In this document: piece after piece, positions 27,146 through 37,292 of the stretch | Layout: each line of letters starts with the position of its first letter | Numbering within the stretch: position 1 is the first letter of the stretch | Assembly (NCBI GenBank): GCA_021790515.1 | Contig: JAJYHV010000015.1 | Coordinates: forward strand, 1 to 37,292 | DNA length: 37,292 bases | From: Pseudomonadota bacterium | Lineage (GTDB): Bacteria; Pseudomonadota; Gammaproteobacteria; Burkholderiales; Sulfuriferulaceae | Direction: 5' to 3' | Made by a program: the position numbers and the translations under genes | Notes under the pieces: model-generated | The model's input: only the letters and a program-made list of their open reading frames with translations | The model's database searches: none | Told to the model about the DNA's origin: nothing

Positions 27146-28822
27146 ATGATGGACACGATGTGTGCTGGAGAGTTGGTGACGACCAATAAAACGGAGATTG
27201 GACAGGATCGGGAATTGCTGACAATTTATGAAATCAGCAAGATTCTGAGTTCTTCGCTCAATCTGTCGCGAACATTGCGGGAGACTCTCAATGTGTTGTC
27301 GAATTATCTGGATATCCGGCGCGGCATGGTCAGTCTGTTGCAGAGCTCCGGTGAATTACGGCTGGTGGCTGCGCATGGCTTGAGTCGTGAAGAATTTCGG
27401 CGCGGATGTTTTGAACCGGGGGAAGGAATTACCGGAAAAATTCTGCAAACCGGTATGCCGGTCGTGTTGCATGATATTGCTGCCGAACCGCAGTACCTGA
27501 ATCGCACCGGATCGCTGGAGGGCCTGGGTGACAAACCGGTGTCGTTTGTTGGCGTGCCAGTCAAACACAATACCAAAGTCATTGGTGTGTTGAGCATCGA
27601 TCATCTGGCCGATCAGCGCCATCGTTCATTCCAGAAGGAAGTCATGTTGTTGAGCATGGTGGCCAACCTGATTGGTCAAACCGTGCGTTTGCAGCAAGGT
27701 GTGGCGGCAGAGCGTGACGCGTTGTTACAGGAAAGCCGTCGCTTGAAGACAGAATTGCGCGGTAAATACAGTCTGGATAATGTGGTGGGTTATTCCAAGA
27801 GCATGCAGGAAGTTTTTGCTCAGGTGCATCAGGCTGCGCCGGGCAGGGCAACTGTCCTGTTGCGTGGCGAGAGTGGTGCGGGCAAGGAAGTCATCGCGCG
27901 TGCCATCCATTTTCTTAGTCCGCGCAAGGATGGGGCGTTTATTAAACTCAACTGTGCCGCGCTGTCTGAAACCTTGTTGGAATCGGAATTGTTTGGCCAT
28001 GAAAAAGGCGCGTTTACGGGAGCGCAAAGCGAACGCAAAGGGCGTTTTGAACAGGCGCATGGCGGTACGCTGTTTCTGGATGAAATCGGCGATATTTCGC
28101 CTGCGTTTCAAACCAAATTGTTGCGGGTATTACAGGAGCGCGAGTTTGAACGCGTGGGCGGCAACCGTTCCATCCGTGTCGATGTGCGCTTGATTGCCGC
28201 AACGAACCGTGATCTGGAAAAAGCGGTCATGGATGGCGGTTTTCGTGCGGACTTGTATTATCGTATCAACGTGGTGGGAATTTTTTTGCCGCCGTTGCGC
28301 GAGCGGCGGGAAGACATCCCCTATTTGGTTGAAATGTTCTTGAGCCGTTTCAATCGCGATAACCAGCGACAATTGCAGGTGTCGCCGGAGGCGATGCGGG
28401 TCATGCTCAATTGTGGCTGGCCGGGCAATGTGCGCGAACTGGAAAACTGCGTTGAGCGGACTGCCACGATGACCCATGGCAATACTATTCGGGATGTCGA
28501 TTTTTTATGCCAGCACGATCGCTGTCTGTCACGTATGTTGCAGGGCGATCTTCCCCCTGAGCATGAAATCGAGCGGCACGTTGCGCCGGTGAGCATGCCC
28601 GTCAGCACGCGTGACAACGCTCGCGATACTACACGTGAGTGGAGATCAGGTCATGACACAAGTGATGGTGGCATGCCGCCGCTTGGTGAGCGGGAGCGAT
28701 TGATCTGGGCGCTGGAGCAATGTGGTTGGGTACAGGCCAAAGCGGCGAGGCTGCTGAATATTTCGGCGCGGCAGATGGGGTATGCTTTGTCGAAATACAA
28801 TATCGAGGTGCGAAAATTCTGA
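27146..28822 (+). CDS. nifA: Nif-specific regulator NifA, oxygen-sensitive type
   Basis: A 558-residue sigma-54 activator that turns on nif genes. Domains: GAF (about 25-170), AAA+ (about 205-440; Walker A GESGAGKE 241-248, sigma-54 contact GAFTGA 288-293), linker, and a C-terminal Fis-type helix-turn-helix (about 512-558). Cysteines at 423, 435, 455 and 460 follow the exact spacing C-X11-C-X19-C-X4-C, the redox- and metal-dependent signature of NifA proteins that sense oxygen directly. No nifL is present in the window. The ATG at 27146 has AAGGAAG upstream. Confidence 0.97.
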
Positions 28823-28854: not shown

Positions 28855-28870
28855 TGTTGACTTTGCGACA
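28855..28870. promoter_or_regulatory. NifA activator site for nifB
   Basis: TGTTGACTTTGCGACA is an exact TGT-N10-ACA NifA site, 33 bases after the nifA stop and at about -128 relative to the nifB transcription start. Confidence 0.8.
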
Positions 28871-28964: not shown

Positions 28965-28980
28965 TGGCATGTTTCTCGCT
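28965..28980 (+). promoter_or_regulatory. Sigma-54 promoter of the nifB operon
   Basis: TGGCATGTTTCTCGCT keeps GG and GC at the correct 10-base spacing and differs from the consensus by one base in the -12 part. It ends 47 bases before the nifB ATG. Confidence 0.75.
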
Positions 28981-29027: not shown

Positions 29028-30581
29028 ATGCAAGAAATGATCGGTAATACGGATAATCACACCAATCATGCATTGGGTGAGATGCTGGACAAGATTGCAG
29101 AGCACAAAGGATGTGGTACATCGGGTGGTTCTGGAAAATCCAGTTGTGGTTCTTCGGATGGGCCATCCGACATGGCGCCGGAGGTGTGGGAGAAAGTCAA
29201 GAATCACCCCTGTTACAGCGAGGAAGCGCATCATCATTATGCGCGCATGCATGTCGCTGTTGCGCCAGCCTGTAACATTCAGTGTAATTATTGCAACCGC
29301 AAATACGATTGCGCCAATGAATCACGGCCTGGGGTGGTCAGTGAAAAGCTGACGCCAGAACAGGCGGCCAAAAAAGTGCTGGCAGTGGCATCGGCCATTC
29401 CACAAATGACGGTACTGGGAATTGCCGGCCCCGGTGATGCGCTGGCCAATCCTGCCAAAACCTTCAAGACGTTTGAACTGATTCAGAAAACGGCTCCCGA
29501 TATAAAATTGTGTCTGTCTACCAATGGGTTGGCGTTGCCTGACCATGTGGATACCATCAAGGCGTTCAATGTCGACCATGTCACGATCACCATCAATATG
29601 ATTGATCCGGAAGTCGGGCAGCATATTTATCCTTGGGTGTACTACAAAAACAAACGTTATACCGGTATCGAGGCAGCGCGCATTCTGACCGAACGGCAGA
29701 TGCAGGGGTTGGAAATGCTGACAGCCGCTGGTGTGTTGACCAAAATCAATTCGGTGATGATTCCCGGCATCAATGACAAGCATCTGGTTGACGTCAACAA
29801 GGCGGTGAAATCACGTGGGGCGTTCTTGCACAATATCATGCCGCTGATTTCTGCGGCTGAACATGGCACAGTGTTCGGCTTGAATGGTCAGCGTGGGCCA
29901 ACGGCGCAGGAGCTCAAGGCGTTACAGGATTCTTGCGAAGGCGAAATGAACATGATGCGGCACTGCCGACAGTGCCGTGCCGATGCGGTTGGTTTGTTGG
30001 GCGAAGATCGCAGCGCCGAATTCACGACGGAAAAAATCGATGCGATGGGTGAAGTAGTGTATGACGCTGAATCCCGCAAAACGTATCAGGAATTGGTGGA
30101 AGCCGAGCGTGTTGAAAAGGTTGCGGCCAAAGAGGCGGCGCTGCAGGAATTGGACGTGACCGATGTTCGCATCATGATTGCGGTGGCGACAAAGGGTCAT
30201 GGCCGGGTCAATGAACATTTCGGTCACGCCCATGAATTTCAGATTTATGAAGTGGGCTCGTTCGGTGCAAAATTTGTCGGCCATCGTCGCGTCGACTTGT
30301 ACTGCCAGGGAGGTTATGGTGACGAAGATACCTTGCCGTCAGTCGTCCGGGCCATCAATGATTGTCACGCTGTGTTTGTGGCCAAGATTGGGGCTTGCCC
30401 ACGAGATGAACTCAAGGCGGCGGGGATTGATCCGGTAGACAGCTATGCTGACGAATTCATCGAAGAGTCTGCCATTCTGTATTTCAAGGAATATTTTGCC
30501 AAAGTCTGCGCACGGGAAATCGAGCACCGGGCGCGTGGTGATGCTGATATCCGGCAGGGTGCATTTACAGCAGCAGCATAA
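29028..30581 (+). CDS. nifB: FeMo-cofactor synthesis protein NifB
   Basis: A 517-residue radical-SAM enzyme that builds NifB-co, the 8Fe-9S-C precursor of FeMo-co. The SAM cluster cysteines are C82, C86 and C89 (CNIQCNYC); other conserved parts are the N-terminal [20 protein letters not shown] and [19 protein letters not shown] NifX-like domain (about 380-490, [20 protein letters not shown]) is fused at the C-terminus. ATG 29028 follows GGGAG. It leads a long run of genes downstream. Confidence 0.97.
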
Positions 30582-30642
30582 ATTGTTCGTGGGTCATGCT
30601 ATTGACGGGTAACAACGTAGTGAACAGAAAGGAAACTGAAAA

Positions 30643-30861
30643 ATGGCTTATAAAATTATCGCATCACAGTGTACCGGTTGTTCGGCTTGCGAGCCGGAAT
30701 GCCCGAATGTGGCGATTCGTGAAAAAAATGGTGTGTTTCTGATTGACCCGAAAAAATGCACCGAGTGCATCGGGCATTTTGATGAAGCACAGTGTGTCGC
30801 GGTATGTCCGGTGGATGATACTTGTGTCATCGATATGGCTTATCCCCGTTATCAAGCATAA
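30643..30861 (+). CDS. fdxN: 2[4Fe-4S] ferredoxin FdxN
   Basis: A 72-residue bacterial-type ferredoxin with [13 protein letters not shown] and [18 protein letters not shown]; the second motif has the seven-residue loop between its second and third cysteines that is typical of FdxN-type proteins next to nifB. In other diazotrophs FdxN supplies electrons to NifB and nitrogenase. AAGGAAAC lies before the ATG. Confidence 0.93.
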
Positions 30862-30883
30862 ACACAATTCTGGAGGAAATTCG

Positions 30884-31255
30884 ATGAACATTACCATCAC
30901 ACCAAAAGCTGAAAAATTCATGCGCCGTATTGTCCGTTTCGGCGGCGCGGAAGGTTCCGGGTTTCGCTTGAGCGTCAGCCCTGGCGGTTGCTCAGGTCTG
31001 GCGTCCGAATTCAGCGCTGAAGCCACACCATTGACCGGCGATGTCGTGTTTGACTGGAATGGGCTCAAGCTGTTTCTACCCGTTGAAAGCCGTTTGATGT
31101 TGGAAGGGGCCACCATTGATTTTGTGGAAACTGCCACCGAATCCGGCTTGAGCTTCAAATTGCCCAATGCACAGTCGTGTGGTTGCAGCAGTTCTTCGGG
31201 TTCGTCGGCTGGCAGCAGTACGGTGGTGAATATTTCCGCCATCACGCGAGCCTGA
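30884..31255 (+). CDS. Nif-type IscA (HesB-like) protein
   Basis: A 123-residue A-type carrier with PGGCSGLASEF and a C-terminal SCGC followed by a Ser-rich tail (SSSSGSSAGSS). This third member differs clearly from the two encoded in the isc operon and resembles nif-linked IscA proteins near nifB or nifU. ATG 30884 has GGAGG seven to eight bases upstream; a frame extending back to 30743 overlaps fdxN and is a shadow. Confidence 0.9.
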   Translation: MNITITPKAEKFMRRIVRFGGAEGSGFRLSVSPGGCSGLASEFSAEATPLTGDVVFDWNGLKLFLPVESRLMLEGATIDFVETATESGLSFKLPNAQSCGCSSSSGSSAGSSTVVNISAITRA

Positions 31256-31297: not shown

Positions 31298-31843
31298 ATG
31301 CCTGTCGCACAGCAGTTTGCGTCTGGATCAGCGGAAGCGCTGGTCATGGACGAGGAGTGGATGGCATCCGCTTGTCTGGGCGGCGTATTGCCGGCAGCGG
31401 TGACCAGCAGTCTGCAACGCGCGGCATTGATGTACCAGCGTGGTGAGGATGCTGAGCCTGTTTTGCTCGATGTGTACAGGGAAGCACAGCATCATCCTGC
31501 GGTTCATATTGCCCTGTATCGGTTTTATTTTTACCGGCATCGGATCGCGGAAGCCTTGCAGGTGGCGGAACGCTGCCTGCTCAAAGTGGCCAACGATTTG
31601 CATCTGCCGTCTGATTGGCGCGAAGTACAACCACATCAGGCCAGTTTCGGGACTTTTGATGATGTGGTGCCCAGGTTCTATCTGTACACACTGAAGGCTT
31701 GCGCATATTTGAACATGCGATTGGGCAGATTGGATATTGGCGGCGCGATGTTGCAACAGCTAAGGCAACTTGATCCGAAAGATCGGTTGGGGGGTTCAGT
31801 GTTGCAAGATGTCTTGGCACGGATTGGGGTTGATGATGAATGA
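31298..31843 (+). CDS. Unknown helical (TPR-like) protein in nif operon
   Basis: A 181-residue soluble protein, all-helical by composition. Two stretches look like TPR units: HPAVHIALYRFYFYRHRIAEALQVAERCL (given here as about residues 67-95) and FYLYTLKACAYLNMRLGRLDIGGAMLQQLRQLDP (about 127-160). No catalytic motif is seen. AAAGGAG precedes the ATG. The 3' end overlaps the LRV gene, suggesting coupling. It may be an adaptor for nitrogenase assembly; that is inference from position only. Confidence 0.75.
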   Translation: MPVAQQFASGSAEALVMDEEWMASACLGGVLPAAVTSSLQRAALMYQRGEDAEPVLLDVYREAQHHPAVHIALYRFYFYRHRIAEALQVAERCLLKVANDLHLPSDWREVQPHQASFGTFDDVVPRFYLYTLKACAYLNMRLGRLDIGGAMLQQLRQLDPKDRLGGSVLQDVLARIGVDDE

Positions 31844-32666
31844 ATCGATTCATGCGGCGGATACAATTGATACCTCATTTCCCGCGCTGGATTGGCAGGG
31901 GCAAGCATTGGATTGCGCGCAATGTGCGCAATCCGTGGCAAAACAGTCTGGCCAGGCGGTGCGTTGCGGATTGCGGGTAGCTTGTGTTGAGGATCGCTAC
32001 GCTTTGCGTATTGATCGTTTTTTCAGATGGAATCCGGCGCTGGCCCGGCAATATTTGCGCCACCCTTATTTTGAAGTGCGTGCCATTGCGGCGAAATATG
32101 TCGATGTGTTCTATCTGCCGCAACTCGTCAAGGATGTTGATGAAACCGTACGCTGGAGTGCGGTACACCGTTTGGCGCCAAGGCAATTGCTGGCGTTGCG
32201 GCAGGATCCGGATCGGGAAGTGCGGATACGTGTTGCAGCGAGACTGCCGGAGGCAAATCTTGTCAGCATGATGGCAGACGAAGATTATTTTGTGCGCACG
32301 ATAGTGGCGCGCCGGTTGCCGCAGGCGTTGCTGTCGGCCATGAAATATGACAAAGATGCCGAGGTGCGTGCCGAGGTGGCCAAGCGCATCAGCGTGGATG
32401 GCCTGCTTGATATGGTGGAAGACGCGTCGGAAATCGTACGTTTGGTGGTCGTACATCGTTTGCCAATGGGGTATCTGGGGCAGATGATGAATGATATCGA
32501 TTGGCGTGTGCGTTATGAAGTGGCCAGACGGGCCGGTTTCGATATATGGAGCAGGCTGCTTGATGACGAAGACGAGGCAGTCAGGGAAATGGCGCATTCA
32601 CGTCAATCGATCCGAGCGACTGCCCAGGTTACCCAGATGCAGTTTGGTGTGGGAGGCAAGCGATGA
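31833..32666 (+). CDS. LRV repeat protein with [4Fe-4S] domain
   Basis: A 277-residue protein of the leucine-rich-repeat-variant family, known from a nif-linked Azotobacter protein. The N-terminal cluster cysteines are C28, C31, C45 and C51, followed by RIDRFFRWNPALARQYL. From about 75 on there are eight or so 24-residue alpha/3-10 repeats of the type DxxxxVRxxVAxRLP (for example DREVRIRVAARLP, DAEVRAEVAKRI). The start is at 31833 or 31836. Overlaps its neighbours at both ends (11 and 4 bases). Confidence 0.9.
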   Translation: MMNESIHAADTIDTSFPALDWQGQALDCAQCAQSVAKQSGQAVRCGLRVACVEDRYALRIDRFFRWNPALARQYLRHPYFEVRAIAAKYVDVFYLPQLVKDVDETVRWSAVHRLAPRQLLALRQDPDREVRIRVAARLPEANLVSMMADEDYFVRTIVARRLPQALLSAMKYDKDAEVRAEVAKRISVDGLLDMVEDASEIVRLVVVHRLPMGYLGQMMNDIDWRVRYEVARRAGFDIWSRLLDDEDEAVREMAHSRQSIRATAQVTQMQFGVGGKR

Positions 32667-32965
32667 AGATCAGCCGTGACAGCAGTATTGTCGAGTTAAA
32701 TGATTCGCCGTGTTTTGATTATGGCGAAAAAGTGAAAAGCCTGAAAACGGTGCGCAACGACGGCACGTTTCCGGGCAAAGAAGTTGGTGACATTCTGGTC
32801 AAAAAGGGCGATTACGGTTATGTCACCAGCATCGGTACGTTCCTGCAACAGTTTTATATTTATGGCGTCGAGTTTGTCGAGCATGGCTATAAGGTGGGCA
32901 TGCGTGCCAAGGAACTGGAATCGCTGGATGAAGCGGGCGCTGATGATGAAAGTAATTGGGAATGA
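32663..32965 (+). CDS. nifZ: NifZ
   Basis: A 100-residue NifZ-domain protein. NifZ helps mature the P-clusters of the MoFe protein. Family stretches are GEKVKSLKTVRNDGTFPGKE, read at about 21-40, and GDYGYVTSIGTFLQQFYIYGVEF. The start overlaps the LRV stop by four bases (ATGA). Confidence 0.92.
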   Translation: MKISRDSSIVELNDSPCFDYGEKVKSLKTVRNDGTFPGKEVGDILVKKGDYGYVTSIGTFLQQFYIYGVEFVEHGYKVGMRAKELESLDEAGADDESNWE

Positions 32966-32989
32966 TGGAATGATTTCTGGAGACGGGAA

Positions 32990-33244
32990 ATGATGGATAT
33001 ACGTGAGCCCAAATATCAGTGGGGACAACCGGTTATCAGTCTCGTTGACTTGTTTAATGACGGATCGTACCCGGATTGCGAACCCGACACACTGTTGGTG
33101 GCGCAAGGTGCGAGTGGGGAAATTGTGCAGGTAGGGCATCACGTTGATGCAAACATACCGGTTTATCTGGTTGAGTTCGGCATTCCGGGGCAGGCAAGCA
33201 GAGTGATTGGCTGTGTCGAGGATGAAATTCAACCTGTGTCCTGA
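32990..33244 (+). CDS. Second, shorter NifZ-domain protein
   Basis: An 84-residue protein with the same plan as NifZ: KYQWGQPVISLVDLFNDGSY, then GASGEIVQVGHHVDANIPVYLVEF. It is not a copy of the gene before it and is probably an old duplicate with its own role. GGAGACGGGAA precedes the ATG. The stop codon lies among a 17-bp tandem repeat. Confidence 0.85.
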   Translation: MMDIREPKYQWGQPVISLVDLFNDGSYPDCEPDTLLVAQGASGEIVQVGHHVDANIPVYLVEFGIPGQASRVIGCVEDEIQPVS

Positions 33245-33307: not shown

Positions 33308-33631
33308 GTGGCGGCACATCCAAATGAACTGGATGCCAGACGCATCATGAAGCGATTGGCGCAGCGCCAGCGTTACCGTTATGTCACGCCAAGGGTGGTG
33401 TTTATTGAGAATGGGTATCAAATTGTGAGTCCGTGTTGTTCGCGCAATGTGGATGCCCGGGGTGGTGAAATCGATATTGCCCGGTTGGAATATGACGCGG
33501 ATCAACTGACATGGTTGTTGTTTCGCAAGAATCACCGGACACTGCAGTGGGAGTTGTCCATCAGGTCTGAGCATCTGGAAGGCGTCTTGTCAGTACTGAA
33601 TGACGACACGAAAAGGGAGTTTTGGCAATGA
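33308..33631 (+). CDS. Small conserved nif-linked protein (DUF3024-like)
   Basis: A 107-residue protein with RYRYVTPRVVFIENGYQIVS, then PCCSRNVDARGGEIDIARLE and a C-terminal LNDDTKREFW. This resembles the DUF3024 family found in nif clusters; the assignment is from memory of the pattern and not certain. The paired cysteines (about 43-44) could bind metal. The start is GTG at 33308 with GGGGAG upstream. Its stop overlaps nifS by four bases (ATGA). Confidence 0.75.
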   Translation: MAAHPNELDARRIMKRLAQRQRYRYVTPRVVFIENGYQIVSPCCSRNVDARGGEIDIARLEYDADQLTWLLFRKNHRTLQWELSIRSEHLEGVLSVLNDDTKREFWQ

Positions 33632-34773
33632 ATGCCACGGTTTATCTGGATAACAACGCAACGGCACCGATGTTGCCGGAAGTCATGACGGCGGTCATGA
33701 CCAGCATGCAGGATTGTTATGGCAATCCATCCAGTAAACATCATGTGGGCGACATGGCGCGGGAAGCACTGATGCAGGCGCGGGGAAAAATGGCCGCTTT
33801 GCTGTCCGCCGCACCGGCTGAAATCGTGTTTACCAGCGGGGCGACGGAAAGCAACCATCTGGCGATTTTGGGAGCGCTGGCGCGAGATCCGGCGCGACGG
33901 CATCTGATAGTCAGCCAGGTTGAGCATCCATCCATTCGATCGTTGTTACCCCGTGTGCAGCAAATGGGGGTTCGGGTGACGGATATTCCGGTGGATAGTC
34001 GGGGCGTGCCGGATATGGAAGCGTTGCGACACGCGCTGACCGAAGAGACAGCGCTGGTCAGCATGATGTGGGTCAACAATGAAACTGGCGTAGTGATGCC
34101 TGTTGCCGAAGCCGCGGCGCTTGCTGCCAGTCGCGGCGTGCCGATTCATGTCGATGCGACACAGGCAGTCGGGCGTATGCCAGTCGATATGCGTGCCTGT
34201 CCGGCGGATTTGCTGTCTTTTTCCGGACATAAGTTCCATGCGCCCAAAGGGGTGGGTGGGTTGTTTGTCCGTAAAGGGTTTGTGCTGCCGGCGTTGTTGA
34301 GTGGACGGCAAGAGCGTGGCCGGCGTGGCGGTACCGAAAATGTGGCAGCTCTCGTTGGGTTGGGGGTGGCGGCAGAATTGGCCGGCCAACACCTGCTGAC
34401 CGGATTGGATGTGGTGCGCAGTTGGCGTGATCGTTTTGAAGCCTTGGTTGCGGCGCGTATTCGTTCCATGCGCATCAATGGCGCTGGCACCGCACGTATC
34501 GGCAATACCAGCCATTTGAGTTTTCCCGGGCTGAATGCGGAGACCATCATTCATCGTTTGGATAAGGCGGGAATCTGTGTATCCAGTGGCGCCGCCTGTG
34601 CTGCCTCCGGAACGGAAGCTTCGCATGTGTTGCTGGCAATGGGACAGAGTGAGGAAATGGCACGTTCTGCGATACGGGTGTCGTTTGGTGTTTGCAATAC
34701 GGAAGAAGAAGCCATTCTGGCTGCAGAAACGCTGTGTGATGTTGTACAGCCATTGTTGAATCGGGCTGCCTGA
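33628..34773 (+). CDS. nifS: Cysteine desulfurase NifS
   Basis: A 381-residue PLP enzyme supplying sulfur for nitrogenase clusters. Marks: [50 protein letters not shown], the PLP lysine in SFSGHKFHAPKGVGG and the cysteine in SSGAACAASGTEASHVLLAM, which is NifS-like rather than IscS-like. The ATG at 33628 is preferred to a TTG two codons earlier because of the GGGAG spacing. No nifU accompanies it. Confidence 0.95.
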   Translation: MNATVYLDNNATAPMLPEVMTAVMTSMQDCYGNPSSKHHVGDMAREALMQARGKMAALLSAAPAEIVFTSGATESNHLAILGALARDPARRHLIVSQVEHPSIRSLLPRVQQMGVRVTDIPVDSRGVPDMEALRHALTEETALVSMMWVNNETGVVMPVAEAAALAASRGVPIHVDATQAVGRMPVDMRACPADLLSFSGHKFHAPKGVGGLFVRKGFVLPALLSGRQERGRRGGTENVAALVGLGVAAELAGQHLLTGLDVVRSWRDRFEALVAARIRSMRINGAGTARIGNTSHLSFPGLNAETIIHRLDKAGICVSSGAACAASGTEASHVLLAMGQSEEMARSAIRVSFGVCNTEEEAILAAETLCDVVQPLLNRAA

Positions 34774-34797: not shown

Positions 34798-35007
34798 ATG
34801 AAAATCATGCTGCGCAAGAATGCTGCGGGTACTTTGTCGGTGTATGTGCCGAAAAAAGATTTGGAAGAGCCTGTGGTCGAGATGTCATCGGCAGACATGT
34901 GGGGTGGTCAGATTACGCTGGCAAATGGCTGGCGACTGGATTTACCGGCGATGCCGGCGGGTACGACGTTACCGATAACGGTTGATGCACGCAAACTGGG
35001 TGATTGA
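34798..35007 (+). CDS. nifT: NifT/FixU
   Basis: A 69-residue NifT/FixU protein, common in nif operons, of unsettled function. Conserved parts are MKIMLRKNAAGTLSVYVPKK and WGGQITLANGWRLDLP. It is separated from nifS by 24 bases. Confidence 0.92.
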   Translation: MKIMLRKNAAGTLSVYVPKKDLEEPVVEMSSADMWGGQITLANGWRLDLPAMPAGTTLPITVDARKLGD

Positions 35008-35008
35008 C

Positions 35009-35287
35009 ATGGCGATAGAAGCGAGTGCGATTGCACAATTGGTTGCATTGCTGGATGCGTTACCGCCGGCGACCAATCCCAGAGTTTCATTGCTGAAGCA
35101 TTTTCCGGACTGGACGATTTCCTGTTGCGATGCGGAAGACATGCGGGATGAAGTGCCTCATTGTCAGGCTGGCCGCTATACCGTGTTTTTGCTGGATAGT
35201 CGCGAGCATTGCTGGCGCATGACTGATGCACTGGATATGGCTACTGGTGTTGTGCTGGCAGAAAAAACGGGGGCTGAACATGGATGA
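35009..35287 (+). CDS. Small unknown nif-linked protein
   Basis: A 92-residue protein starting one base after the nifT stop. The N-terminal helix (AIAQLVALLDALPPATNPRV) is followed by FPDWTISCCDAEDM and a strand-rich YTVFLLDSREHCWRMTDALD. It may belong to the DUF6129 group of small nif-linked proteins, but I am not sure. No catalytic motif is seen. It overlaps the next gene by 8 bases. Confidence 0.7.
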   Translation: MAIEASAIAQLVALLDALPPATNPRVSLLKHFPDWTISCCDAEDMRDEVPHCQAGRYTVFLLDSREHCWRMTDALDMATGVVLAEKTGAEHG

Positions 35288-36434
35288 TGACGAAGACTGG
35301 ATTGCGCTGAGTGACCCGGATATCAGCATGGCCGAGCTGGATGCCGTGACGAACGTACTCAAATCGGCGCGAATTTCTGCCGGGGAGGTTGTTGATGCCT
35401 TTGAAAACGATTTTGCTGAATATCTGGGGCGGCGTTATGCCGTGGCAGTGTCGAGCGCCACGCAAGGGCTGGTGCTGGCGTTGCGCGCGCTTGGCATACG
35501 CCCCGGAGATGAAATCATTACCAGCGCATATGCCTGGTATCAGATTGCACATGCCATTACCCTGGTGGGCGCTGTGCCGGTATTGGTGGACATCGATTAT
35601 TGGTCCGGCGCGTTGCTGGCAGACAAGGCAGCTGCAAAAATTACGCCTGACACCCGCGCCATATTGGCGGGCAATCCGAATGGGCATCCGGCAGATTGGG
35701 ACGCCCTGCGCGCGCTGGCCGGTCGGCATGGGCTGGCATTGCTGGAAGATTCGACCGAGGCAATCGGCTCACGTTATCAGGGAAAACTGGTGGGCACGTT
35801 TGGTGATGTGTCTGTGTTCGATTTTTCCCAACCGGCTGCGCTGGTCTGTGGCGAGGGTGGAATGGTGGTGACGGATGATCCGGTGTTGGCGAGCGAGTTA
35901 CGTTATTTTCGTGGTCGCATCATGGACGAACGTTTTTCAATTTCGATTGCAAGCCGTGTGCCACATCAGGCCATGATGAGTGACATGAGCGCAGCCCTTG
36001 GTCTGGCGCAACTGGAACGTCTGGATGAAATTCTGGCGCGCCGTAAACGTGTCGAGAGCTGGTATCTGGCGTACATTCAGTCATTCGAGGGTATCAAGCC
36101 CGCTTACATTGCTCCGGAAGTGGACGAGATCCACTGGATGACATTCTTGGTCCATTTGGGGACGCGCTTTACCCGCAGTGCGCGTAATCAGATTGTGGAT
36201 GATTTGTTGACGGCGCATATCGAAGCGCCAGCGTACTGCAACCCTTTGCATCTGCAATATTTTTACGGCAACCTGGGTTATCGCAAAGGGGATTTGCCCG
36301 TCACGGAAAAAGTGGCGGATCGCGCATTGGCTTTACCGTTTCATGGGCATCTGGACGAAGATACGGTGGCTTTTATCGTACAGACGGCCAAAGATTCGTC
36401 TGTGAATGTGGGGGCTGGTGCGGCCATTTATTGA
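35280..36434 (+). CDS. DegT-family protein lacking the catalytic lysine
   Basis: A 384-residue protein with the fold of DegT/DnrJ/EryC1/StrS sugar aminotransferases: AVAVSSATQGLVLALRALGI (55-74), GDEIITSAYAWYQIAH, the PLP-contacting aspartate in LEDSTEAIGS (D157) and GEGGMVVTDD (191-200). The lysine expected five residues before GEGG is replaced by alanine (A186; local sequence DFSQPAALVC). It therefore cannot form the usual PLP aldimine at that place. ATG 35280 fits best. No sugar-synthesis gene is near; the neighbours are nifS, nifT and a SIR2-like gene. Confidence 0.88.
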   Translation: MDDDEDWIALSDPDISMAELDAVTNVLKSARISAGEVVDAFENDFAEYLGRRYAVAVSSATQGLVLALRALGIRPGDEIITSAYAWYQIAHAITLVGAVPVLVDIDYWSGALLADKAAAKITPDTRAILAGNPNGHPADWDALRALAGRHGLALLEDSTEAIGSRYQGKLVGTFGDVSVFDFSQPAALVCGEGGMVVTDDPVLASELRYFRGRIMDERFSISIASRVPHQAMMSDMSAALGLAQLERLDEILARRKRVESWYLAYIQSFEGIKPAYIAPEVDEIHWMTFLVHLGTRFTRSARNQIVDDLLTAHIEAPAYCNPLHLQYFYGNLGYRKGDLPVTEKVADRALALPFHGHLDEDTVAFIVQTAKDSSVNVGAGAAIY

Positions 36435-36498: not shown

Positions 36499-37292
36499 AT
36501 GGCTGAAAAATTCCCTCCCTTGTTGCTGGATGCACTGCGCCAAGGAAGCGTCATACCGTATCTGGGTGCGGGTTTGCTGGATGCAGCGGAAAACACCGTG
36601 CGTCTTCCTGCCACACCAGAGGCGTTGGCGGAACTGTTGACCACCAAGGTCAGCGTGCCGCATAAAATCCGCAAACGGCTGACTGCAGCGGCGCAATACA
36701 TCGAGAATTTCAAGCACCGAAAAACCTTGGTCAATTTGATGAATGGCGTATTTTCCCAGCACGGTACGCCGACAGCGCTGCATCAATGGTTGTCGACGTG
36801 GCCGGATTTGCCTTTGCTGGTGTCTGCCTGGTATGACGATACCATGCAGCGGGCACTGGTTGGACGAACCGGTGGTTGGGGCATGGTGCAGGGATTGTCG
36901 CAATCGGAGCATTTTGGACAATGGATCGGGTATTACCATGCGGATGGCAGCAGTGCCACAGAGGCAGAAAGTGCTGATTGGCAAACTTTGTTGTATCAAC
37001 CGTGGGGTAGTGCCAGCCCGGCAGGTAATTATCTGGTATCGGATTCCGATTATGTGGAAGTATTGACAGAAATCGATATCCAGACGCCGATTCCGGAGCC
37101 AGTGCAGCGTTTGCGCGCCGGACGGCATTTTCTGTTTTTGGGTTGCCGGTTTAATGACCAGTTGAGCCGTTCTTTTGCGCGGCAGATCATGAAGCGTTCG
37201 TCCGATCAGCATTGGGCGATCTTGCCAACTGATATGAGTCGTAATGAACAGCGGTTTTTGTTGGAGCAACGCATCACACCGTTGCATATGTC
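36499..37292 (+). CDS. SIR2-like domain protein, 3' end outside window
   Basis: The frame is open from ATG 36499 (AAAGGA upstream) to the window edge, 264 codons. The pattern fits the SIR2-like family: nucleotide loop VIPYLGAGLL (18-27), LLVSAWYDDTMQRAL in place of the usual TTNYD segment (106-120), NYLVSDSDYVEVL (177-189) and FLFLGCRFNDQLSRSF (211-226). Where SIR2 proteins often have a catalytic HG, this one reads PWG (168-170). It probably belongs to the nifB run, 64 bases after the DegT-family gene. Whether it uses NAD is unknown. Confidence 0.75.
   Translation, partial: MAEKFPPLLLDALRQGSVIPYLGAGLLDAAENTVRLPATPEALAELLTTKVSVPHKIRKRLTAAAQYIENFKHRKTLVNLMNGVFSQHGTPTALHQWLSTWPDLPLLVSAWYDDTMQRALVGRTGGWGMVQGLSQSEHFGQWIGYYHADGSSATEAESADWQTLLYQPWGSASPAGNYLVSDSDYVEVLTEIDIQTPIPEPVQRLRAGRHFLFLGCRFNDQLSRSFARQIMKRSSDQHWAILPTDMSRNEQRFLLEQRITPLHM

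Follow-up and report, generated by a model that had tools for sequence, protein, structure and literature searches.

The closest solved relatives of the protein described here are GDP-perosamine synthase and ArnB, DegT/StrS nucleotide-sugar aminotransferases in which a lysine holds pyridoxal phosphate (PLP) as an internal aldimine. ColD- and E1-type dehydratases, which depend on pyridoxamine phosphate (PMP), use a histidine in place of that lysine. The title of structure 3bb8 mentions H220 of E1, and those of 4oca, 3nys and 4ztc describe engineered Lys-to-Ala family members that still carry PLP or substrate adducts. Here, we analyzed a DegT gene without this lysine, nif-DegT, which lies within a run of nitrogen fixation (nif) genes on contig JAJYHV010000015.1 of a Pseudomonadota bacterium from the Sulfuriferulaceae (assembly GCA_021790515.1; the whole stretch of 37,292 nucleotides is hereafter “the window”). 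Public records name such genes “DegT/DnrJ/EryC1/StrS family aminotransferase”, a function that we consider very unlikely from the sequences. We judge it rather probable that nif-DegT is a nif-dedicated pseudo-aminotransferase, i.e., a protein that has lost the lysine and acts as a non-transaminating accessory in nitrogenase maturation or protection.

Loss of the Schiff-base lysine across a clade

By profile, nif-DegT belongs to the DegT/DnrJ/EryC1/StrS family, with PF01041 covering residues 15-368 (E 1.8e-90; profile search of the window proteins), and it is predicted to adopt the fold-type-I DegT fold. An initial structure model from 13 sequences was poor, with a predicted local distance difference test (pLDDT) score of 69, and was superseded by a later model in which residues 380-384 have pLDDT <50, a long helix (248-266) is followed by K273, and K371 sits within the last helix.

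Homologues were compared in an alignment of 41 clade sequences, the window's included, and 18 more distant paralogues (L029-L044, L062, and L071). Rows L005-L011 are near-copies, a broken copy (L061) was excluded from the counts of both 41 and 39, and the incomplete L012 and L057 were excluded from the counts of 39. Ala186 aligns with the catalytic lysine of the solved perosamine synthetase 3bn1, five residues ahead of G191 in GEGG; the original prediction, made from the window sequence, had placed the loss exactly there, with Asp157 kept, and was right in coordinates and substance. Lysine occupies position 186 in 0/41 clade members and 18/18 paralogues, which upholds the claim that this is not a normal Lys-dependent aminotransferase, and the change is fixed throughout those nif-linked homologues that were found. 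Position 186 is Ser in 30 clade members, Gly in 6, Ala in 3, Leu in 1, and Gln in 1; His, the mark of ColD/E1 PMP-dependent dehydratases, is absent from all 41 aligned members, and the suggestion that another residue might act at the same place is unlikely given this range of residues.

Three further features went beyond the original prediction, alongside the usual Ser at position 186, namely an Asp at position 181, the loss of a loop Asn, and a new, near-invariant C-terminal tail. All 39 complete members terminate in GAG[AST][AS]IY or the same motif plus Leu, an ending that none of the 18 paralogues has. In a tree of 57 rows, these 39 full-length members fall on one side of a single branch (support 100/100) with a stem of 1.4 changes per site.

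The alignments also indicate that nif-DegT is under purifying selection, with rough ratios of non-synonymous to synonymous substitution rates (dN/dS) of 0.02–0.17 in 12 of 13 pairs and saturation in the 13th. A fold predicted to be kept, a lost catalytic residue, and purifying selection are attributes that nif-DegT has in common with pseudoenzymes. A pseudogene, an assembly error, or a chance loss in one strain is refuted, as is the lone mutant or sequencing error named in the original prediction: Lys is lost in 41/41 members, the DegT genes among the listed matches are open frames without internal stops, and dN/dS is well below 1. The observation favoring decay is a broken, unannotated copy with Leu for Lys in the nif region of the alphaproteobacterium Bradyrhizobium BWA-3-5 (L061 11835-12963), which has its SIR2-like gene elsewhere in the same nif cluster. 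This single case from a peanut nodule would fit dispensability in symbiosis-only strains; full-length DegT genes on Paraburkholderia plasmids, one from a root nodule, run counter to that idea.

The search of related genomes gave ~90 non-clade matches (92 by hand count), of which 18 were inspected for the lysine (L029-L044, G002:C86, and G000:C10), and all 18 have it. G002:C86, 18 kb from nifH, and G000:C10 of the window's own genome are both ArnB-like and sit in what we take, by resemblance, to be arn (lipid A)-like operons. L062 adjoins glycosyltransferase genes, and L071 of genome G088 (37% identity, Lys kept) has surroundings (L079, 12.7 kb) without a match to the other nif genes of the window. 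No nif-linked homologue with the lysine was found, the surroundings having been inspected for few Lys-bearing relatives. Since the NifS-like protein encoded three genes upstream keeps its catalytic residues and the own ArnB-like protein keeps its lysine, the loss is specific to DegT.

Association with nitrogen fixation genes

A clade member was detected in 14 of 61 related genomes (one of these partial). In the class sample (E <= 1e-95), 9/369 genomes matched, i.e., 8 with clade members, own genome included, plus G088, while all 6/398 matching genomes of the phylum sample (E <= 1e-80) hold clade members, again including the own genome; three clade holders (G537, G594, and G607) come from a different class within the phylum. 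A peptide-pattern scan of genome contigs, which can miss distant members, yielded 14 loci (13 relatives at 50-74% identity and 1 short match), and 4/112 records of a plasmid collection matched at 58-65% identity, one of them broken. No viral relatives came out of the pattern scan that used the window protein. Three DegT relatives on viral contigs (L096, L097, and L101) have His at the lysine position, as ColD-type dehydratases do. Named betaproteobacterial holders are Azoarcus, Methylotenera, Hydrogenophaga, Polaromonas, and Paraburkholderia, and beyond these the clade occurs on a gammaproteobacterial Methylococcus plasmid and in one Nitrospirota record.

Both co-occurrence with nifH and synteny tie the gene strongly to nif, in line with the nif-linked role put forward in the original prediction. 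Among the related genomes, 14 carry DegT, 14 carry nifH above the cut-off, and 11 carry both (p 2.7e-7); in the three DegT holders without nifH (G000, G003, and G047), all draft assemblies, the gene lies among nif genes. In the phylum sample without the own genome, nifH was detected in 5/5 DegT holders against 37/397 genomes overall (p 5.4e-6). In G013, nifH lies ~22 kb downstream of DegT.

The gene also holds a stable position in nif gene runs. In the window, the order is nifA, nifB, fdxN-like, IscA-like, TPR, LRV-FeS, nifZ, nifZ, DUF3024, NifS-like, nifT, DUF6129-like, DegT, and SIR2-like (Table 1), with the nifB, fdxN-like, and IscA/ErpA-like names presumed from resemblance and in agreement with how the syntenic genes of L058 and L060 are annotated. 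Nearly the same run is found at L001-L011 and L045-L056, several being clipped by locus ends (L008 shows four genes) or having single genes unmatched (TPR in L001), and a shorter version, nifB-iscA-LRV-nifS-nifT-DegT-SIR2, at L013. Annotated versions exist in Methylococcus EFPC2 and on two Paraburkholderia plasmids.

Table 1 Features of nif-DegT and its gene run in the window
Feature	Position	Strand	Basis
nif-DegT, DegT/StrS fold, Schiff-base Lys absent	35280..36434	+	uninterrupted open reading frame (ORF), 384 aa
codons 157-160 (DSTE), retained Asp157 and Glu160	35748..35759	+	each 41/41 clade
codon 181, Asp replacing the paralogues' Ser	35820..35822	+	Asp 41/41; paralogues Ser 17/18
codon 186 GCT (Ala), Schiff-base lysine position	35835..35837	+	alignment
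C-terminal tail NVGAGAAIY	36405..36431	+	39/39 complete clade members, 0/18 paralogues
nifA	27146..28822	+	ORF; syntenic with annotated nifA of L058 and L060
NifA-site-like TGT-N10-ACA, ahead of nifB	28855-28870	+	
-24/-12-like TGGCATGTTTCTCGCT (GG-N10-GC), ahead of nifB	28965-28980	+	chosen by eye
nifB, fdxN-like ferredoxin, and IscA/ErpA-like genes	29028..31255	+	ORFs
TPR-like protein	31298..31843	+	weak TPR matches below curated cut-offs; syntenic
LRV FeS4-cluster protein	31833..32666	+	PF05484 and PF01816
two tandem nifZ	32663..33244	+	PF04319 twice
DUF3024 protein	33308..33631	+	PF11225
NifS-like cysteine desulfurase	33622..34773	+	PF00266; own catalytic Lys and Cys kept
nifT	34798..35007	+	TIGR02934, above cut-off
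small DUF6129-type ORF, directly upstream, overlapping DegT start	35009..35287	+	homologues in relatives' loci
SIR2-like gene, cut by window end, usual 3' neighbor	36499..37290	+	PF13289

The sites ahead of nifB might fit a NifA/sigma54-controlled unit, a weak suggestion from sequence: TGT-N10-ACA occurs 14 times across the window against 10.15 expected, window-wide counts of sigma54 and NifA patterns are not above chance, and the -24/-12-like site is missing from the pattern-scan matches (<=1 mismatch). The DUF3024 protein is regularly encoded in the DegT-bearing run. The small DUF6129-type protein evolves fast (25-52% identity where matched) and adjoins the 5' side of DegT in most loci; the DUF6129 model scores above its cut-off for the relatives at L001 and L061 and below it for L058, and the window copy has no Pfam match. 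The nifB match is split in two at L050 (15835-17348) and L051 (3072-4858), possibly by an insertion or frame break. At L059 (10988-13456) of Paraburkholderia sprentiae, the annotated NifS-like gene measures just 420 bp and the SIR2-like gene is partly matched and unannotated; DegT is full length.

The NifS-like desulfurase raises the alternative that nif-DegT pairs, as a non-catalytic subunit, with an active PLP enzyme in a heteromer. Proteins of this fold are known to include such pseudo-subunits, as with LCB1, the non-catalytic partner of LCB2 in serine palmitoyltransferase, and by that analogy the NifS-like protein, separated from nif-DegT by nifT and the DUF6129-type gene, could be such a partner. 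It scores 426 bits against TIGR03402 (cut-off 530.75), and its Lys and Cys are kept in the window copy and in every one of the 33 best hits (one per locus, 37 loci), at least 2 of these hits being IscS-type copies outside the run. However, NifS proteins are class V (PF00266) and distantly related, making shared dimer contacts unlikely, L074 and L075 have a clade DegT and no NifS-like gene in the run, and DegT remains full length beside the 420-bp gene of P. sprentiae, so that we regard a heteromer of this kind as quite unlikely.

A second partner candidate is the SIR2-like protein, with which nif-DegT could form a two-protein regulatory or protective unit, e.g., for modification of nitrogenase parts dependent on nicotinamide adenine dinucleotide. 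The SIR2-like gene lies <= ~700 bp downstream of DegT at 35/37 scored loci, in some with small genes between, and is carried by each of the 5 DegT genomes in the phylum sample other than the own genome (p 5.8e-9). Against such a pairing, it lies ~4-5 kb upstream of DegT, on the same strand, at the other two loci (L085 in G607 and L087 in G537), is partly matched at L059 next to a full-length DegT, and is the more widespread gene, with 12 against 6 of 398 phylum genomes (own included). Six of the 398 have it without DegT, and four of these six are nifH-positive. Independently of DegT, the SIR2-like (PF13289) gene is a member of nif clusters, and we find the two-protein unit very doubtful. A PADLOC search gave no match for DegT or the small ORF and one weak match (E 0.005) for the SIR2-like protein.

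The cofactor pocket and the proposed role of nif-DegT

The pocket has been altered beyond the lysine. In 41/41 clade members, Asp181 occupies the place where the FSF...K motif of the paralogues has a Ser, which we take to be a ligand of the PLP phosphate. In the loop at 230-232, the paralogues carry an Asn (N232 in 15/18, N230 in 2/18), presumably a PLP contact from the partner subunit, and no such Asn occurs in the 41 clade members (one is gapped there); the clade hence lacks both the phosphate Ser and the partner-subunit Asn of the DegT family. Asp157, which we assume to be the partner of the PLP pyridine N1, is retained together with Glu160, residue 86 is aromatic (W or F) in 41/41, and T61 of the SGT loop is kept in 35/41, with S, R, or N in the other six. 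Further clade-fixed residues include N132, W108, W140, R218, K273, and H292. Among conserved lysines (K273 in 40/40 members with a letter there, K371 in 39/39, K116 in 39/41), K273 and K371 were considered as stand-ins for the lost one and judged unlikely from their positions in the model. PMC9309667 describes PLP phosphate ligands, for other classes in the parts we covered.

These residues bear directly on an alternative in which nif-DegT would bind PLP or PMP non-covalently and run a Lys-independent reaction, resembling a PMP-type dehydratase or an aldimine carrier. The invariant D157 and E160, the aromatic residue 86, the frequent T61, and the PLP or adducts retained by Lys-to-Ala mutants of relatives all favor it. 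However, Asp181 replaces the Ser, the loop Asn is missing, T61 is swapped in 6/41, and position 186 is variable and never His, unlike ColD-type enzymes; overall, we consider such a reaction unlikely.

As a pseudo-aminotransferase, nif-DegT would be a DegT/StrS relative that kept the fold, lost the lysine holding PLP as an internal aldimine, and was co-opted in the nifB gene run, where it would bind instead of transaminating and would serve the maturation or protection of nitrogenase. The protein would form a fold-type-I dimer, its old cofactor pocket (W86, N132, D157, E160, and D181) may now be structural or hold another ligand, and the ...GAGAAIY tail may dock on a partner encoded in that run. 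Of its parts, the Asp-rich old pocket and the tail would be the ones likely at work. The interpretation given in the original prediction is supported in part, and its proposals of PLP or cluster-precursor binding and of a scaffold function may apply. In a narrower version, which we hold to be unlikely and speculative, nif-DegT would be a new nitrogenase-assembly factor whose pocket (Asp181, Asp157, Glu160, Asn132, and Trp86) binds a cationic or metal-containing cofactor-assembly intermediate or a partner peptide, with the invariant ...GAGAAIY handing it on or anchoring to a nifB-run partner.

Several observations weigh against the pseudo-aminotransferase reading. The invariance of Asp157 and Glu160 and the W/F at 86 look as though a PLP-like ring were still bound, and lysine loss alone is no proof of cofactor loss, because Lys-to-Ala relatives still carry PLP or adducts. 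DegT is absent from 32/37 nifH genomes of the phylum sample and likewise from the nifH-bearing relatives G015, G041, and G051, and the gene is dispensable for nitrogen fixation in general. The window's own assembly, searched for both, has no nifH above the cut-off and no nifD; the own locus (L015) ends 861 rather than 1500 bases past the match, at the window end, where the contig seems to stop inside the SIR2-like gene, and we think that the nifHDK contig is absent from this assembly. Some tree branches are flagged as long (L070, L013, and L071 among them), with a midpoint root for drawing only, and dS is >1 in 5 of the 12 dN/dS pairs, making these values rough. Finally, for clade members our literature search returned neither a phenotype nor any interaction or biochemical data.

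Taken together, nif-DegT probably serves a different job in building or protecting nitrogenase, and this predicts that it forms no internal aldimine and has a role in diazotrophic growth. As a conserved and apparently unstudied protein of the nifB run, it is a candidate for a component still lacking when nitrogenase is transferred to new hosts. It is also a clean example of how an aminotransferase fold can be put to another use once the catalytic lysine is gone.

Comparison with described systems

Our search of openly licensed papers, a minority of them read, returned nothing on the lysine loss and a sole mention of the protein, in a table of PMC3899966, which in the parts covered lists the DegT gene without discussing it. 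That gene, BRADO5411 in the nif region of Bradyrhizobium ORS278, is given there as a putative aminotransferase beside genes for a 2Fe-2S ferredoxin, NifZ, LRV, TPR, and SufA-like proteins, and we liken it to nif-DegT by this listing, not by sequence. According to the same parts, four neighboring genes of the set make up an operon that is conserved among nod-independent Bradyrhizobium strains and Azorhizobium caulinodans, though not among three named rhizobia without free-living nitrogen fixation, and bacteroids of A. caulinodans up-regulate the cluster. No such gene was seen in the parts covered of PMC9769520, PMC3916325, PMC8305402, and PMC3912193, the word DegT having been queried for part of them; the match in PMC9164220 was an author name, and those in PMC6522883 concern other enzymes.

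Among characterized enzymes, the GDP-perosamine synthase of Caulobacter (3bn1, 3dr7, and the K186A mutant 3dr4) has Lys186 and the FNYRM Asn, both missing in nif-DegT, which in turn has an extra C-terminal tail and a nif instead of a polysaccharide context. ArnB, the UDP-Ara4N aminotransferase (1mdo, 4oca), has the fold in common with nif-DegT, at ~32% identity and with an aromatic residue at 86, whereas the ArnB-like paralogue of the own genome (L105) differs in keeping the lysine (FSFHANKN) and in sitting among arn-like genes. The ColD and E1-type PMP dehydratases (3gr9, 3bcx) share with nif-DegT a DegT fold without the lysine, yet those enzymes carry His in its place, a residue found there in 0/41 members of the nif-DegT clade.
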